A DNA stretch of 31,699 bases from a virus. Below, one piece after another: positions 10,613-29,839 of the stretch; position 1 is the stretch's first letter; every line of letters begins with the position of its first letter. The notes under the pieces were generated by a model. The model searched no databases and had not been told where the DNA came from. It was given only the letters and a program-made list of their open reading frames with translations. The stretch spans positions 1-31,699 of IMG/VR virus record IMGVR_UViG_3300028800_000241; one strand, given 5' to 3'. The position numbers were made by a program, and so were the translations under genes.

Positions 10613-11067
10613 AGAAGCGGGGCGAGCTGGACGAAAAAAGCCTTGATGTCGGCGATGATGCCGTTCTGGTCGATCTGCTCCAGCACCACAGACGCGAGCT
10701 TGAAGGGCGTCTTTCCAAGCAGCTTGACCTCGGCCACCGTAATCTCAGGTGCGCTTTGGGCGCAAACGATGCGGGCCATTTCCGGCAGGGACTTTCCGCA
10801 GTACGTGATGAGGGCGGCGGGCGTCAGGGCGTCGTTAAGACCAAGGCCGCTAAGACCCGGCAGGGTGCCCAGCAAACCTTCCAGCAGGGGTTGGAGCTGA
10901 GCCAGGAACAGGGTGTACTGATCGTAGGGAAGATCCAGGACGGGGAATGTGCGATCCCCTAGAACGACCGTACGCTCAGCCAGGGACGGATCGTTGGTAA
11001 CCGCCCGCACAATGTGCAGAGCAGTCGGCTTGCTTGATTCGGTCGTGTCGATGTTTTCAGTGTCCAT
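10597..11067 (-). CDS. Tail assembly chaperone, short form (gpG-like)
   Basis: This 156-aa protein starts at ATG 11067. The frame stays open further upstream, but that stretch covers a hairpin and promoter and does not look coding. The protein has a predicted beta-rich N-terminal half (TALHIVRAVTNDPSLAERTV), a helical middle (LPYDQYTLFLAQLQPLLEGL) and a helical C-terminus ending LLKKKK. It follows the major tail protein, as expected for the gpG position. The terminal lysine run is encoded by an A-rich slippery sequence that allows -1 frameshifting into the next frame. No strong Shine-Dalgarno sequence precedes the ATG. Instead a GC-rich hairpin ends 12 bases upstream, which may set translation. 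Confidence 0.8.
   Translation of the reverse strand: MDTENIDTTESSKPTALHIVRAVTNDPSLAERTVVLGDRTFPVLDLPYDQYTLFLAQLQPLLEGLLGTLPGLSGLGLNDALTPAALITYCGKSLPEMARIVCAQSAPEITVAEVKLLGKTPFKLASVVLEQIDQNGIIADIKAFFVQLAPLLKKKK
10606..10612 (-). promoter_or_regulatory. Candidate -1 ribosomal frameshift site
   Basis: The minus strand reads CTG AAA AAG AAG AAA TAG in the chaperone frame. G-AAA-AAG allows tandem slippage of two lysine tRNAs by one base, after which the frame runs GAA AAA GAA GAA ATA into the 91-codon downstream frame. The zero-frame stop (10597-10599) lies 7-9 bases after the heptamer. Confidence 0.65.
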
Positions 11068-11078
11068 AATGTAGTTGG

Positions 11079-11115
11079 AGCCCCCGCAAAACGCGGTAAG
11101 CGAGTCGCGGGGGCT
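11079..11115 (-). promoter_or_regulatory. GC-rich hairpin before the tail chaperone start
   Basis: AGCCCCCGC and GCGGGGGCT form a perfect 9-bp inverted repeat around a 19-base loop. On the minus strand it lies between the promoter at 11139-11168 and the chaperone ATG at 11067. No U-tract follows, so it is not a normal intrinsic terminator. It may tune chaperone expression relative to the major tail protein or protect mRNA. Confidence 0.6.
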
Positions 11116-11138
11116 TTGTGGAAAGCTCCTATATTCTA

Positions 11139-11168
11139 ATGGTAGCACACACCAGAGGGGTGTGTCAA
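11139..11168 (-). promoter_or_regulatory. Promoter/operator upstream of the tail chaperone
   Basis: TTGACA (-35) and TACCAT (-10) are 18 bases apart on the minus strand, between the major tail protein and the chaperone. The spacer holds a perfect inverted repeat, ACACACC-CCTCT-GGTGTGT, that overlaps the promoter and looks like an operator. It belongs to the CTTGACAC family seen at the repressor, terminase and thyX promoters. Confidence 0.6.
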
Positions 11169-11173
11169 GGAGT

Positions 11174-13401: not shown

Positions 13402-13427
13402 AGAGGTGATTACTCACCCCTCCCGTC
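13402..13427 (-). promoter_or_regulatory. Stable hairpin after the major capsid gene
   Basis: GGGAGAGGTGA and TCACCCCTCCC form an 11-bp stem with one mismatch and a 4-base loop, starting 7 bases past the capsid stop on the minus strand. There is no U-tract. It probably protects the capsid mRNA 3' end or lowers read-through, giving high capsid dose compared with the connector genes. Confidence 0.55.
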
Positions 13428-17288: not shown

Positions 17289-18227
17289 TTACATCGCTAT
17301 CCGCTGCTCTTTGAAGTAGACCAGCGATTCGTCCAGGGTCCTGACGCTCTTAGCGTCTAAGCGTTTGGCATAGGTCGCGCTGCGGTTGTAAGCCGTTTCC
17401 ATCAACTCGTACATGCTGGCCCCAGGATTCAGGCGCAGGTGTTTCCCGTTCAGGAAGCTGTCAAACAACCGATATAACCACTGCTCGCCGCCGATCACGT
17501 TTGCGGAGGTCAGCAGATTCAAGTAGTACTCGTCCGTGTAGTGCCGCGAGTAACCACGGTTTCCAGCGTAGTGATAATGAATCAACCGAGGGTCGATGTG
17601 ATTGGTCTTCCCCAGCCTCCACATCTTGAGGTCAAACAGCAGCTCCTCACCGCCGTAGCCTTGCAACAACTCCTCGGGACCGTAGCCGCCCACTTCGTCC
17701 CACGCGGTCTTACGCACTACAAACCCGCCGTGCCCACCCGCCGCGAGCGGATACATCGTGAACTCCTTCTGCGGAAACTGTGAACTCTCTGCCCAGAAGT
17801 TATAGTCGAGCTTCAGCGTGTAGTGGTAATGCGCTCCCTGCGACGAGTAAAACTTCGTCGTAGAGTGAAGCATGTCCAGCGGCCTGCCTTCGAAGTCGGC
17901 TACGACTCTCTCGAAGTAGCGCTTCCCAACAAGACAGTGGTTATCGAAGAAGCACAGCAGGTTACCGTCAGCGACCGAAGCGCCGCGTTGGCGGGCGGCT
18001 GGCGGGGACAACGCCACATCGGAGTGGACGTGCGCGAGCAGCCGCTTGGAACTTTCCAGATAGTGAATCGTGTTTAGGGCGTCGGCGTCTAACTTCTCTC
18101 CATTGGTGACAATGACGTAGTTATAGTCGAAGTCCAAACCGAGTAAGTCCTCTTCACAGCTATGGATTGTCGCCCAAAGCCCCAAGGCATTACCGCGATG
18201 CGGAATGATGATAGAGAAGTCAGCCAC
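17289..18227 (-). CDS. Family-2 glycosyltransferase (GT-A fold)
   Basis: A 312-aa protein starting at GTG 18227 behind AGGA (spacing 8), just 2 bases past the terminase stop. The N-terminus FSIIIPHRGN is a classic GT2 nucleotide-sugar strand. FFDNHCLVG (residues 93-101) holds a DxD-like DNH metal site. GGHGGFVVRKTAWDEVGGYG then YGGEELLFDLKMWRLG matches the galactosyltransferase/GalNAc-T-like catalytic region, with E194/E195 as likely acceptor-activating residues. No signal peptide or membrane segment is visible, so it should act in the cytoplasm. It sits between large terminase and portal, so it is co-expressed with head genes. It may glycosylate capsid protein or modified phage DNA. The acceptor is unknown. 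Confidence 0.85.
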   Translation of the reverse strand: MADFSIIIPHRGNALGLWATIHSCEEDLLGLDFDYNYVIVTNGEKLDADALNTIHYLESSKRLLAHVHSDVALSPPAARQRGASVADGNLLCFFDNHCLVGKRYFERVVADFEGRPLDMLHSTTKFYSSQGAHYHYTLKLDYNFWAESSQFPQKEFTMYPLAAGGHGGFVVRKTAWDEVGGYGPEELLQGYGGEELLFDLKMWRLGKTNHIDPRLIHYHYAGNRGYSRHYTDEYYLNLLTSANVIGGEQWLYRLFDSFLNGKHLRLNPGASMYELMETAYNRSATYAKRLDAKSVRTLDESLVYFKEQRIAM

Positions 18228-18229
18228 GT

Positions 18230-19582
18230 TTACAGTCCTGGAACCTGCCGAAAGCGATACACGAACGGGGCCTGGTCGGCCTGCCAATTACACAACGCCA
18301 AAGAGATGACGCAGTCGTCATGAGATCCGCTTGGAGCGGAGAACTTCACCGTTCCGTTCGTATTCACGATGTACTCGTAACTTTCCAGCTCACGGCGCAT
18401 AACCGTCAACTCTGCTGGAAAGGAGATTCTTGCTTTCTCGATGTTGATGCGCAGCTTGTCGATGAGCTGATGCTTCGCCGTGTTACTGGAGATCTTGTAC
18501 GGAACGACGTTCAGCCCAGCGCCTTGGATCGTCTCTACAATCGGGTCACCGATACCGGTGGAGTCGATGCAGACCTGTGCCTTGTACCGGCGCGCTACGT
18601 CGATCATGCGGGAGTATTGAATCTCCCATTCCAACTTGTTGAACCGATCCTGGTACACCACGTGGCGATTCAGACAGTCCATCACGGTCAGAACTGTGAA
18701 GTCTTTCAACTTGCCCAAGTCAACACCCAGAATGTAGCGATGACCGGGGATGTAATCCTGCAACGACCCGCGCACGCAGGATGCGATCCCGCGAAACACA
18801 CCAGCGGAATCCATCAAGAAGTGGGCAGCGACTTCCTGCCGGAACACGTCGTCAGGCAGGTTCCGTTTCATCTGCCGGATAGATTCAAGCGGTACGGTCG
18901 GGTTCGACCAGGTTGGCATCCGAATGGACAACCATTCCGGGTACTTGTCTTCGCCGGGGGCGAACTTCGGACTTCCGTCGTCAAAGAACTTCTCGCCGCG
19001 TTGATAGATGTCGTAGAACCAGTTGCGCGCGTGCGGTGTGCTGATGAAGATACCGGGCGCAAACGTTTGAGTAACTGTGGTAATCAGCGAGACAAATGAC
19101 TCGTACGGGATTCGCGCCGCTTCGTCGCAGATGAAGAAGTTGACGCCGAACCCGCGAAGTGAGTCGGGGTTATCACCAGACTTGAACTCGATTACACTGT
19201 GCTCTGCCCCATCTGGCTTTAGGATGACAATCTTCAGATCCGCCTTATACTCTGCGTATGTGTTCTTCGGAAGCATACGCTTCGTCAGGTTGTAGGCGTT
19301 CTTCGATTGTGCGAACGTGGGAGCCACCCACCAGTTCAACGAACCCTCGTGCGTCCAAGCACGCTTGATGATCGCCGTGACACAGCCGTACGTTTTGCCG
19401 AACTTCGTTCCGCAGGCACCCACGACGAACCGCAATCCGAGGATTGTGTCAAGCGCTGTAATCAGTTGGTGCTGCTTCGGATGCGCGGGCGGCAGCTTCA
19501 GGCTGACCGGTCTAACTACGGTCTTCTGCGAGAGAAGTTCAGATGTTCGAAATTCTTGTTCGGGGGGCTTCGTTCGGGCCAT
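18230..19582 (-). CDS. terL: Terminase large subunit
   Basis: A 450-aa protein starting at ATG 19582. A GTG at 19615 has no ribosome binding site. The ATPase half has Walker A GACGTKFGKT (residues 55-64) and Walker B FFICDE (149-154), with a likely coupling ISTP near 180-183. The nuclease half has the RNase H-like acidic residues D288 (ILGVDLGK), D340 (VCIDSTGIGD) and D422/D423 (SGSHDDCV). It packages and cuts phage DNA at the portal. All key residues are intact and the length is usual for the family. Confidence 0.95.
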   Translation of the reverse strand: MARTKPPEQEFRTSELLSQKTVVRPVSLKLPPAHPKQHQLITALDTILGLRFVVGACGTKFGKTYGCVTAIIKRAWTHEGSLNWWVAPTFAQSKNAYNLTKRMLPKNTYAEYKADLKIVILKPDGAEHSVIEFKSGDNPDSLRGFGVNFFICDEAARIPYESFVSLITTVTQTFAPGIFISTPHARNWFYDIYQRGEKFFDDGSPKFAPGEDKYPEWLSIRMPTWSNPTVPLESIRQMKRNLPDDVFRQEVAAHFLMDSAGVFRGIASCVRGSLQDYIPGHRYILGVDLGKLKDFTVLTVMDCLNRHVVYQDRFNKLEWEIQYSRMIDVARRYKAQVCIDSTGIGDPIVETIQGAGLNVVPYKISSNTAKHQLIDKLRINIEKARISFPAELTVMRRELESYEYIVNTNGTVKFSAPSGSHDDCVISLALCNWQADQAPFVYRFRQVPGL

Positions 19583-20763: not shown

Positions 20764-21034
20764 CACGCACGGGCGTTGTGGTGGACGTTCCATATGGCCT
20801 GCCGTTCTTCTTGGGTGTGTATTGCGCAAGTCCTTCTTCAAACGGAACTCCCAGGACTCTGCACATGCGAGCCATAGTTTCTTCGGTAGGCCGGGAAACG
20901 TCCTCTCTGTAGAAATAGATGGACGACCGGGACAAATCGCATTTGCGAGCGAACAGCTCGGGTGTAAGATTCAAGCGCTCCAGGTGCGGATCAAGCCACT
21001 GCTTGATGTGATTGAAGTCTCTTTTCGTCGGCAT
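20753..21034 (-). CDS. XRE-family repressor
   Basis: A 93-aa protein with a helix-turn-helix at about residues 23-60 (LTPELFARKCDLSRSSIYFY, then RPTEETMARMCRVLGVPFEE), typical of HTH_3 regulators. It is transcribed opposite to the DNA polymerase gene. Two minus-strand promoters with the CTTGACAC core precede it. The nearer one leaves only 7 bases between -10 and ATG, so its mRNA should be leaderless. It most likely maintains lysogeny or times early expression and probably regulates itself by binding the nearby CTTGACAC sites. It lacks the C-terminal peptidase domain of LexA-like repressors, so induction would need another partner. Confidence 0.8.
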   Translation of the reverse strand: MPTKRDFNHIKQWLDPHLERLNLTPELFARKCDLSRSSIYFYREDVSRPTEETMARMCRVLGVPFEEGLAQYTPKKNGRPYGTSTTTPVRVNR

Positions 21035-21041
21035 ACTACTG

Positions 21042-21071
21042 ATTATCGGTAAGAGTAGGGGTGTGTGTCAA
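21042..21071 (-). promoter_or_regulatory. Proximal repressor promoter, leaderless
   Basis: TTGACA at 21066-21071 and GATAAT at 21042-21047 (minus strand) are 18 bases apart. The -10 ends 7 bases before the repressor ATG at 21034, so transcription should start at or next to the A of ATG, like lambda PRM. Confidence 0.65.
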
Positions 21072-24143: not shown

Positions 24144-24204
24144 TAAAATGTTAAGCCTACAAGCGCCCGTAGCTCAGTTGGATAGAGCGGCTGGCTTCGA
24201 ACCA
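24144..24204 (+). promoter_or_regulatory. attP core: 5' half of a tRNA-Arg gene with its own promoter
   Basis: From 24163 the sequence is GCGCCCGTAGCTCAGTTGGA and on through the D-arm and the anticodon stem-loop to 24204, where tRNA similarity stops. The loop CTTCGAA implies anticodon UCG (arginine). There is no T-arm or 3' acceptor strand, so it is not a functional tRNA. TAAAAT at 24144-24149 is a plausible -10 for it. Tyrosine integrases often recombine within anticodon loops, and the integrase gene starts 160 bases downstream. After integration the phage would supply the promoter and 5' half and the host the 3' half. Crossover at the anticodon loop is inference. Confidence 0.75.
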
Positions 24205-24212
24205 TCGCCTAT

Positions 24213-25657: not shown

Positions 25658-25687
25658 TTGACACGCATCTAAAGTGTGTGCTATAGT
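25658..25687 (+). promoter_or_regulatory. thyX leader promoter/operator
   Basis: TTGACA and TATAGT are 18 bases apart, a strong sigma70-like promoter with the CTTGACAC core. CACGC...GTGTG in the spacer partly repeats the operator-like symmetry. The predicted start, about 25694, coincides with the 5' edge of the structured leader RNA. Confidence 0.75.
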
Positions 25688-25693
25688 TAAATA

Positions 25694-25777
25694 GATGGGG
25701 AACGACGCACGAGCGACGAGTGACCTTACCGGCAAAGCCGAGGGGATCTGCCAGTCGGCGCGTGTCGTTGCCCCACC
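25694..25777 (+). ncRNA. Candidate aptamer: structured leader upstream of thyX
   Basis: TGGGGAACGACGC (25696-25708) pairs with GTGTCGTTGCCCCA (25762-25775): five base pairs, one bulged G, then eight more including one G-U. Inside, CGAC (25714-25717) pairs with GTCG (25754-25757) and CGGC-AAA-GCCG (25730-25740) forms a hairpin. The 3' arm of the outer helix, GCCCCA plus CC, can instead pair with GGTGGGGC at 25809-25816, which overlaps the terminator's left arm. Thus the outer helix, antiterminator and terminator are mutually exclusive, as in transcriptional riboswitches. When the outer helix forms, the terminator is expected, so this would be an OFF switch. I do not recognise a known class. 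Ligand unknown. Confidence 0.6.
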
Positions 25778-25811
25778 TTCGTTCTGTTCATATTCTCCTC
25801 TCTCATTGGGT

Positions 25812-25841
25812 GGGGCGGTTTCGCAAGCCGCCCCCTTTTTT
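25812..25841 (+). terminator. Intrinsic terminator in the thyX leader
   Basis: GGGGCGG and CCGCCCC form a stem extended by T-G, T-A and T-A pairs (10 bp in total) around a CGC loop, followed by C and six Ts. It lies between the promoter and the thyX ribosome binding site, so it must be bypassed for thyX expression. Its left arm competes with GCCCCACC at 25770-25777. Confidence 0.85.
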
Positions 25842-25861
25842 AGTGTCTACGAAAGGGCATC

Positions 25862-26479
25862 GTGCAGATAGTCAAAGCCAGTTTCAGCATCGAAGACGAG
25901 ATCGACGGCGAGGCAATGCTGAAGCGCATTGAACGAGCTGGGCGTACGTGCTACAAGTCCGAAATGAAGATCACCGACTCCACCGCTCACGCGTTCGTGG
26001 CGAGGGTGATTGCCAGCGGGCACGAGTCGGTGATTGAGCATGAGAAGGTCACCGTTCGCATCGTCTGCGACCGTGGCGTGTCCCACGAGCTGGTGCGACA
26101 CCGCATCGCCAGCTACAGCCAGGAGAGCACCCGGTATGTGAACTACGGGAAGCGCGGAGGCGTGGCCTACGTTCTGCCGGTCTGGGTGACTCCTGATACC
26201 GCTGAGTGTCGGCTATGGCAGGCAGGCTGTGCCGCCAACGAGCGGGAGTACCTGGACGCGCTCTCAAGAGGCTGGAAGGCACAGGAAGCCAGAGGGTTCC
26301 TGAATCACTTCGTGAAAACGGAGTTGGTGAGCACCTTGAACTTCCGGTCCTGGCGAAACTTCTTCCGACTGCGCTCTGTGTTCGCAGCTCACCCCTCGAT
26401 GCGGGAGATCGTCGTTCCGATGCTGGCGGCATTCAAGCAGTTGATCCCGGTAGTGTTCGATGACATCTGTGTTGCTTAA
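25862..26479 (+). CDS. thyX: FAD-dependent thymidylate synthase
   Basis: A 205-aa protein starting at GTG 25862 behind AAAGGG. It has the ThyX signature RHRIASYSQESTRY (residues 79-92; RHRx7S with R79, H80, R81, S89) that binds FAD and dUMP. It converts dUMP to dTMP using methylene-tetrahydrofolate and a reduced flavin. Residue content and length are normal for the family, and the preceding SGHESVIEH helix is typical. It supports phage DNA replication. It is controlled by a promoter, a structured leader and a terminator, and followed 10 bases later by a coiled-coil gene. Confidence 0.95.
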   Translation: MQIVKASFSIEDEIDGEAMLKRIERAGRTCYKSEMKITDSTAHAFVARVIASGHESVIEHEKVTVRIVCDRGVSHELVRHRIASYSQESTRYVNYGKRGGVAYVLPVWVTPDTAECRLWQAGCAANEREYLDALSRGWKAQEARGFLNHFVKTELVSTLNFRSWRNFFRLRSVFAAHPSMREIVVPMLAAFKQLIPVVFDDICVA

Positions 26480-27068: not shown

Positions 27069-27105
27069 GCACCACGCCGTTCACCTTCTATTCGTCTTCG
27101 TGTGA

Positions 27106-27148
27106 TACAGTACTAAGGGAGCCCCCGTAAGGGGGTTACCGGAGTACT
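27106..27148 (+). promoter_or_regulatory. Hairpin over the ribosome binding site of the LuxR-type gene
   Basis: AGTACT at 27109-27114 pairs with AGTACT at 27143-27148, enclosing AA/GG mismatches, GG/CC, G-A and then A-GCCCCC (27120-27126) pairing with GGGGGTT (27131-27137) around a GUAA tetraloop of GNRA type. The GGAG ribosome binding site at 27141-27144 is inside this structure. TGATACAGT near 27103-27111 is an extended -10-like element, so the full stem may depend on which promoter reads the gene. Its role as a translational control element is inferred. Confidence 0.45.
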
Positions 27149-27156
27149 CACATCGA

Positions 27157-27447
27157 ATGAATAAGACTATTCCTATTGGAAGTTCAAGTAGCAAACGGGA
27201 TGCAAATGTGTTGGGGTCGTTCACCGCTGCGCAGATACGCACGGCAGGGCTGGCGGCGCAGGGTCTAGCGACGAAGACCATCGCTGACCGGGAAGGCGTA
27301 ACTGAGCGGAGCGTCAAACAGCGCTTGCACATCGTGATGGAACGTGTAGGCGCTACGACCCGGGTGGAGTTGGCGCGCTGGTGGATGGTGAACGCGGAGC
27401 GATATGGCGACTGCCATCATTGCACCCTGCGGCGGTGCATGGCGTAG
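27157..27447 (+). CDS. LuxR/GerE-type HTH regulator
   Basis: A 96-aa protein. Residues 22-78 (FTAAQIRTAGLAAQGLATKT, then EGVTERSVKQRLHIVMERVG, then TRVELARW) match the LuxR_C_like DNA-binding domain with its GLATKTIA turn. There is no receiver or autoinducer domain, so it is a stand-alone DNA-binding module. A C-terminal CHHCTLRRC may bind metal. GGAG lies 12 bases upstream of the ATG, inside a hairpin. It could activate phage genes or interfere with host regulators; targets are unknown. Confidence 0.8.
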   Translation: MNKTIPIGSSSSKRDANVLGSFTAAQIRTAGLAAQGLATKTIADREGVTERSVKQRLHIVMERVGATTRVELARWWMVNAERYGDCHHCTLRRCMA

Positions 27448-28965: not shown

Positions 28966-29012
28966 AGCCCTTGTCAAATGCACATTCGTGTTCATTTGTC
29001 AAGGGCTTTTTT
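28966..29012 (+). terminator. Strong intrinsic terminator after the HNH gene
   Basis: AGCCCTTGTCAAATG and CATTTGTCAAGGGCT form a 15-bp stem with a single T-T mismatch and a 12-base loop with a CAC/GTG inner pair, ending in six Ts. It separates the early operon from the unusual right-hand region and is probably bidirectional. Confidence 0.9.
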
Positions 29013-29839
29013 GCGCTTAGATACTAACAGTTGACAGTTCGGTCGGACCAGGCTCGAACGCGCCCGCGAACCGCCTATGTTCCGGCCTCGTATGTCAGTG
29101 TAAGGACATGGCTTAGCGTCGTTTAGAACAGCGCAAAACTTGAGACTACCCTGCGCAAGCCCCCCACCACGTCGTAACCCCTACCATTACTTCGTCTGGA
29201 CGGCGTACGGACTAGGTACCACGTCGAAACACAGTAGAAACAATGTCTTTAGCCTAGACTTAAACGACATGTGTTGTTTATACGACGTGTGACGCTGTTG
29301 TAACGGCGTTATAGGGGCGTGTAGACCGAGGGTTAACCAAGCTGGTACCTCAGTTCATACGCCGTACGCCGTCGATACGCCGTCCCAACGAAGTGAACCC
29401 GGTTAGACGCTATGCACCAGCTATGCTCTGGTGTTCCTGGTACCCTCGCACACTACCTACATATAAAGGATAGCTGCGGGTATGGTAGGGCGCTTTGGCA
29501 TACCACGTGCTAGTGTGAGCAAGTGTAGGGCCGTTCCTGTGTTGGGGCGGATTGCACAGTATTCAATGGCGAACATAAGGCGTATAGACCACGTCATTCT
29601 ACGTTGCATGATGTAAAGGGCCATTCTCGTTACATAGGGGTATAGGATGTTAGGTACCTCCCGACGCGTCGGACGCGTGGCAAGGCTCGCAGGCGGCAAT
29701 ACGCGGGTATTCAGCTTGACACACATGGCGCGTGCGAGTGACACACGCACATTAAGACATTTTAATATGGCCATACGCTTGCTACGCGTGCGCGCGTTCA
29801 TTTTCCCTGTATGCGTGCTGGCTTGCTAACAGAAACCAC
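29013..29839. other. Non-coding, inverted-repeat-rich region
   Basis: No convincing gene was found in about 830 bases. GACGGCGTACGG (29199-29210) is the exact complement of CCGTACGCCGTC (29362-29373), and GGACGGCGTA also matches TACGCCGTCC (29376-29385). Shorter dyads include TAAACGACA-TG-TGTTGTTTA (29261-29280), CACCAG-CTATGCT-CTGGTG near 29414, CCGACGCGTCGG (29661-29672) and TATGGCCATA (29766-29775). GGTACC occurs four times within about 450 bases. A CTTGACAC site is at 29715-29722 and TAGACGCTA at 29404-29412. This may be a structured RNA, a replication origin or a cluster of regulatory sites. I cannot choose between them. Confidence 0.6.
29715..29727 (+). promoter_or_regulatory. CTTGACACACATG site without a -10
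   Basis: The core matches the promoter/operator family, but the base 17-18 positions downstream is TGACAC rather than a -10. GTGACA at 29738 with TAATAT at 29763 is a weaker alternative promoter nearby. It may be a repressor site. Confidence 0.35.

Follow-up and report, generated by a model that had tools for sequence, protein, structure and literature searches.

The thyX gene of a soil phage, whose host probably lies within the Acidobacteria, is preceded by a promoter, a structured leader and an intrinsic terminator. These parts are read here as a promoter-proximal termination unit of a temperate phage, which sets the level of thyX operon expression or acts as a gate for it (probability about 0.45). 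The window, meaning the whole stretch of DNA analysed, is the complete IMG/VR entry IMGVR_UViG_3300028800_000241 (positions 1–31,699, 31.7 kb). As read from the sequence, no fact in the case carries more weight than the order promoter, leader, terminator, thyX. The initial annotation had described the region as an OFF riboswitch or attenuator. The attenuator half holds by architecture, an intrinsic terminator being located between promoter and coding region, and an attenuation or antitermination reading has a plausibility of slightly less than one half, whereas the OFF riboswitch half was not upheld. The parts of the unit and its operon are as follows.

25658–25687 (+), promoter TTGACA-18-TATAGT, sigma-70-type, with 11 of 12 consensus matches and an extended −10
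25696–25775 (+), leader hairpin of 80 nt, a 13-bp outer helix plus inner helices in one unbranched rod
25770–25777 (+), 5' strand of the candidate antiterminator, GCCCCACC
25776–25808 (+), spacer, unstructured and pyrimidine-rich
25809–25816 (+), 3' strand of the candidate antiterminator, GGTGGGGC, overlapping the 5' arm of the terminator
25812–25841 (+), intrinsic terminator, about −19 kcal/mol, six Ts
25833–25857 (+), CCCTTT/AAAGGG hairpin, which would mask GAAAGGG, the Shine-Dalgarno sequence of thyX, in read-through transcripts
25862–26479 (+), thyX (Thy1, PF02511), GTG start
28966–29013 (+), operon-end terminator (about 29007), closing the operon opened by thyX

The leftward genes of the window are those for terminase, portal, scaffold, capsid and tail proteins; DNA polymerase, an XRE regulator, integrase, thyX and more small genes run rightward. 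The 5' half of a tRNA-Arg (anticodon TCG, about 24164–24205) is located between regulator and integrase, just upstream of the latter. An exact 42-nt match to it was found in 24 genome contigs, 20 of which are titled as Acidobacteriota groups, the remaining four being three Elusimicrobia and one titled just ‘bacterium’. This tRNA half is a probable attP core and host marker and, together with the integrase, points to a phage that is probably temperate and a host that is probably an acidobacterium, in a phylum where phage regulation has, to our knowledge, been little studied. The closest isolated relatives of the polymerase are Tunturiibacter phages (37.6% and 31.7% identical). Upstream of the LuxR/sigma-like small gene at 27157, the region 27105–27157 carries a hairpin, CCCCCGTAAGGGGG, within an AGTACT...AGTACT repeat.

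Relatives of the phage were found via terminase, portal and capsid only: G413 (41 kb), G415 (68 kb, capsid 81%) and a 5.7-kb fragment. The portal and capsid searches led to one relative, the same contig in both, and the terminase search to two more; searches with integrase or DNA polymerase gave none. G413 has polymerase, XRE regulator and integrase in the same order as the window. By tblastn, thyX is absent from both G413 and G415, so thyX plus its leader may have been acquired locally. A glycosyltransferase family 2 gene (17289–18287, minus strand), between terminase and portal, is present in G413 and G415 at about 60% identity. The XRE-family gene at 21034–21071 (minus strand) has its ATG 7 nt past a good −10 box and lacks a Shine-Dalgarno sequence; it is conserved in G413 from the first residue onward, and its mRNA is likely leaderless.

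The promoter is located where the initial annotation had placed it, with a predicted start at about 25694, next to the 5' edge of the outer helix. Its spacer holds a dyad, CACnCA-N7-TGTGyG, which recurs in G415 and could be an operator, part of it being accounted for by the −35 box and the extended −10 (TGTGC). A pattern derived from the window and the G415 copies, CTTGACACnCA-N6-KTGTGYGnKATAnT, occurs four times in G415, all of them copies used to build it, and was absent from every other IMG/VR contig and from the genomes of the host class (0/399). By these sequences, the thyX promoter is no accident. Promoters with the −35 CTTGACACnCA and the dyad partner TGTGyG before the −10 were seen in the window at 25658, 20378 (minus strand) and 11168 (minus strand), and in G415 at 13427, 16040, 27105 and 33130; they are possible operator sites. 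The window further contains 11 CTTGACACnCAC-like sites, with 0.7 expected. In G415, a stretch of about 330 nt with no evident gene (L135 13457–13795) follows a strong promoter; as a homologous long leader the sequence behind the promoter at 13427 was rejected, showing no excess structure (z +0.7) and no Rfam match.

The terminator with its six Ts, likewise at the position first proposed, is one of two convincing terminators on the plus strand of the record, the other being that at 29007. The thyX start follows 20 nt past the T-tract, and no promoter was found between terminator and gene. Because thyX homologues align from residue 1, GTG 25862 is taken as the start, so that a promoter would not fit downstream of the T-tract; every thyX transcript must therefore cross the terminator. 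Pairing of the CCCTTT in the terminator tail with the AAAGGG of the Shine-Dalgarno sequence is a possible second layer, and may be due to chance.

The outer helix proposed earlier is real, with 13 pairs between 25696–25708 and 25762–25775, G25770 being bulged and one pair being G-U, and the inner helices (25714–25717/25754–25757 and 25730–25733/25737–25740) are both part of the minimum free energy fold. On its own the hairpin reaches −40.7 kcal/mol (z −3.6; none of 200 shuffles as stable) and ranks 8th among the 12,646 85-nt windows of the record, within the most stable 0.1%; most of the other top-ranked 85-nt windows fall in GC-rich genes. The fold offers no recognisable binding pocket.

A stable 5' hairpin, a single-stranded pyrimidine-rich middle and a terminator make up the typical shape of a terminated small RNA, and the unit could accordingly be a gene for a discrete trans-acting RNA of about 147 nt, with thyX expressed by read-through. 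Below the Rfam threshold, the two top-scoring matches are to small-RNA families, at chance level (E 0.6 and 2.1). In G415, copies of the promoter pattern stand before genes and directly before a tRNA-Trp, which shows that promoters of this family are able to drive an RNA gene. The small-RNA explanation is nevertheless doubtful: pairing of the spacer to translation starts of the phage was no better than that of shuffled spacers, so that a trans-acting seed on these starts was rejected, no homologue was found, and a terminator directly upstream of thyX is odd for the end of an unrelated gene.

The 8-bp perfect antiterminator of the initial annotation exists as a helix, and by itself it is weak evidence. 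Shuffling yields at least 8 bp against the terminator arm in 1.4% of cases for the leader and in 2.7% for the spacer, and the window contains 44 perfect inverted repeats of at least 8 bp at comparable distances. These figures favour a terminator that leaks constitutively and does no more than reduce thyX expression or shield the gene from transcription of the integrase operon, downstream of which the terminator also lies, the antiterminator then being a product of chance. The dedicated promoter upstream, and not downstream, of the terminator argues against this explanation, as does a stable hairpin whose 5' edge nearly coincides with the predicted transcription start, and we consider it rather improbable.

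The helices had also been described as mutually exclusive. This is correct for six nucleotides of the outer helix (25770–25775), which clash with the antiterminator, but not for the inner helices. The antiterminator state lies 1.7 kcal/mol above the best fold, and in the predicted ensemble of the free terminated RNA the terminator has a probability of 0.95 and the antiterminator one of 0.016. The hairpin thus closes unaided, and the free RNA is predicted to terminate already. With the 5' arm blocked, the antiterminator reaches a predicted probability of about 1.0 in transcripts ending at 25816–25830, in which the terminator is still incomplete; once the terminator is complete, it regains 0.93 at equilibrium and the antiterminator is back to 4%. 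Since the terminator wins at equilibrium when just the 5' arm is blocked, a switch would have to be kinetic. With the first 46 nt blocked, folding predicts an antiterminator probability of 0.89 in the complete RNA. The predicted logic of the leader is default-OFF, and ON when a factor occupies the 5' arm.

Under the gated-termination reading, a nascent RNA left alone would fold its 5' hairpin, after which transcription would stop at the terminator. Read-through might increase when an agent alters RNA polymerase close to the promoter, in the manner of lambda Q. Alternatively, a protein, a ribosome or an RNA might occupy the 5' arm, which would free GCCCCACC to hold GGTGGGGC until the polymerase has gone by.

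A ribosome could occupy the arm on the following open frame.

25695–25871 (+), open frame of 58 codons with its ATG at the predicted 5' end and coding statistics at chance

Translation of a leaderless leader peptide from ATG 25695 would bring a ribosome over the 5' arm or across the terminator, giving read-through and coupling to thyX. The ATG is located 7 nt past the −10, the same geometry as at the XRE gene at 21034 (minus strand), the 58 codons are open through the terminator, the stop codon (25869–25871) overlaps the thyX start, and the folding result for the first 46 nt agrees with such coverage. Openness and codon use are both at chance, however: 23% of shuffles stay open, 43% of those equal the codon score of the frame, and this score is under the 5th percentile of real genes. 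Protein homologue searches gave no match. These results lend no support to a coding leader, and the leader-peptide mechanism is quite unlikely.

An OFF riboswitch is unlikely as well, and a metabolite riboswitch for a nucleotide, a folate or a flavin with transcriptional OFF logic is highly improbable. The function of thyX and the partly exclusive helices make up all the positive evidence for it. The statement that no known riboswitch class was recognised in the leader was borne out by the Rfam covariance search proposed with it, which gave no matches at the gathering score; at E≤10, two small-RNA families and one protein-gene leader appeared, all far below the cutoff. The fold is an unbranched rod. 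As the ligand-free RNA is predicted to terminate already, a ligand that stabilises P1 is left with nothing to do, and a leader that stops transcription unless its 5' arm is held behaves in the reverse of the way such a ligand needs.

Homologous thyX leaders, which were to be compared for covariation, were found neither by BLAST nor by pattern or covariance model. This holds for phages, plasmids, IMG/VR and a GTDB pattern scan, and for a sample of Acidobacteriota genomes searched by BLAST or with a covariance model built from one sequence; the six leader matches at E<0.01 in 399 genomes are about the number expected. A general thyX leader was rejected after a scan of 350 nt upstream at 46 IMG/VR loci from the thyX search. 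A strong terminator-like site close to thyX was present at two of these loci and missing from the other 44, which also speaks against a riboswitch. Two further loci, identical to each other, have a weak terminator-like site further up, and none of the four has a promoter. An origin of the gene with the host thyX was likewise discarded, the best host ThyX sharing about 38% identity across most of its length; 22 of the 121 sampled genomes of the class match at all. The open-access literature found reports no thyX riboswitch or attenuator.

A second unit was seen at a tail gene, namely the gene downstream of a major-tail-like gene.

11067–11169 (−), promoter-like site and leader hairpin before the tail gene, position and hairpin common to G413 and G415

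Its counterparts are located at L137 19329–19443 (minus strand) and L133 281–392 (plus strand). In G415 and G413 a promoter is followed by a leader of 56–62 nt, a T-tract terminator and then the tail gene. At the window site the promoter-like sequence has a weak −10, the hairpin is kept and the T-tract is missing. All three hairpins consist of a GC stem of 10–11 bp, a 2×2 internal loop and an upper stem (z −5.3 to −5.7). Read by eye, the outer pairs and upper stems diverge between G413 and G415, yet still pair. The unit is best regarded as analogous rather than homologous to the thyX leader. Its occurrence in the relatives suggests that this lineage makes use of promoter-proximal terminators, and with paired stems kept in three phages it is a second testable case.

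Gated termination of thyX is thus argued for by the promoter and terminator with no other promoter before thyX, by a hairpin more stable than all 200 shuffles and by the folding probabilities. The two relatives, whose tail gene is preceded by the same order of parts, and the window, whose hairpin occupies the matching position, point in this direction too. Counted against it are the singleton status of the thyX leader, the weak significance of the antiterminator alone, the return of the terminator to 0.93 once complete, and a tail-gene unit that matches in part order and not in sequence and that in the window has no T-tract. No PHROGs or Pfam match to a Q- or N-type antitermination protein was obtained among the ORFs scanned, which took in part of the small ORFs of a perhaps incomplete record. 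If the unit is regulated, a temperate phage would silence a nucleotide-synthesis gene in the lysogen or in early infection via termination and not via initiation. A wider proposal, in which promoter-terminator modules of an acidobacterial phage lineage would be regulated gates at the tail gene and at an acquired thyX, opened by a phage antitermination factor of an undescribed type or by ribosome entry at a leaderless AUG, is speculative and has a low probability.

Phage riboswitches are described as rare; methylophage Melnitz carries a glutamine riboswitch of a known class at ssrA, with thyX nearby (PMC9004378). Melnitz and the present phage both carry thyX; the present leader differs in fitting no known class. 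As in T-box and trp leaders and in purine-class riboswitches, terminator and candidate antiterminator share strands, but the thyX leader has no recognised aptamer, T-box or binding site and no Rfam match, and unlike transcriptional riboswitches and attenuators its default would be termination without ligand.

In phage lambda, the promoter PR' makes the short 6S RNA, which is ended by the intrinsic terminator tR' directly before the operon served, and Q antiterminates. The thyX unit resembles PR'-tR' in having a phage promoter, a short transcript and, immediately ahead of the operon concerned, an intrinsic terminator, and may be similar in logic. It differs in the gene, thyX in place of lysis genes, and no Q homologue was recognised among the ORFs scanned. 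The mechanism of antitermination by Q is treated in PMC6606751. For HK022 put, the account in PMC9378689 describes a nascent phage RNA that acts on the polymerase that made it. By that description, a folded RNA close to the beginning of an early phage transcript could influence its own polymerase here as well; put makes the polymerase ignore distant terminators, whereas here the terminator is located within the same leader. Going by these accounts, lambda Q and HK022 put may be considered the nearest phage precedents for read-through control.
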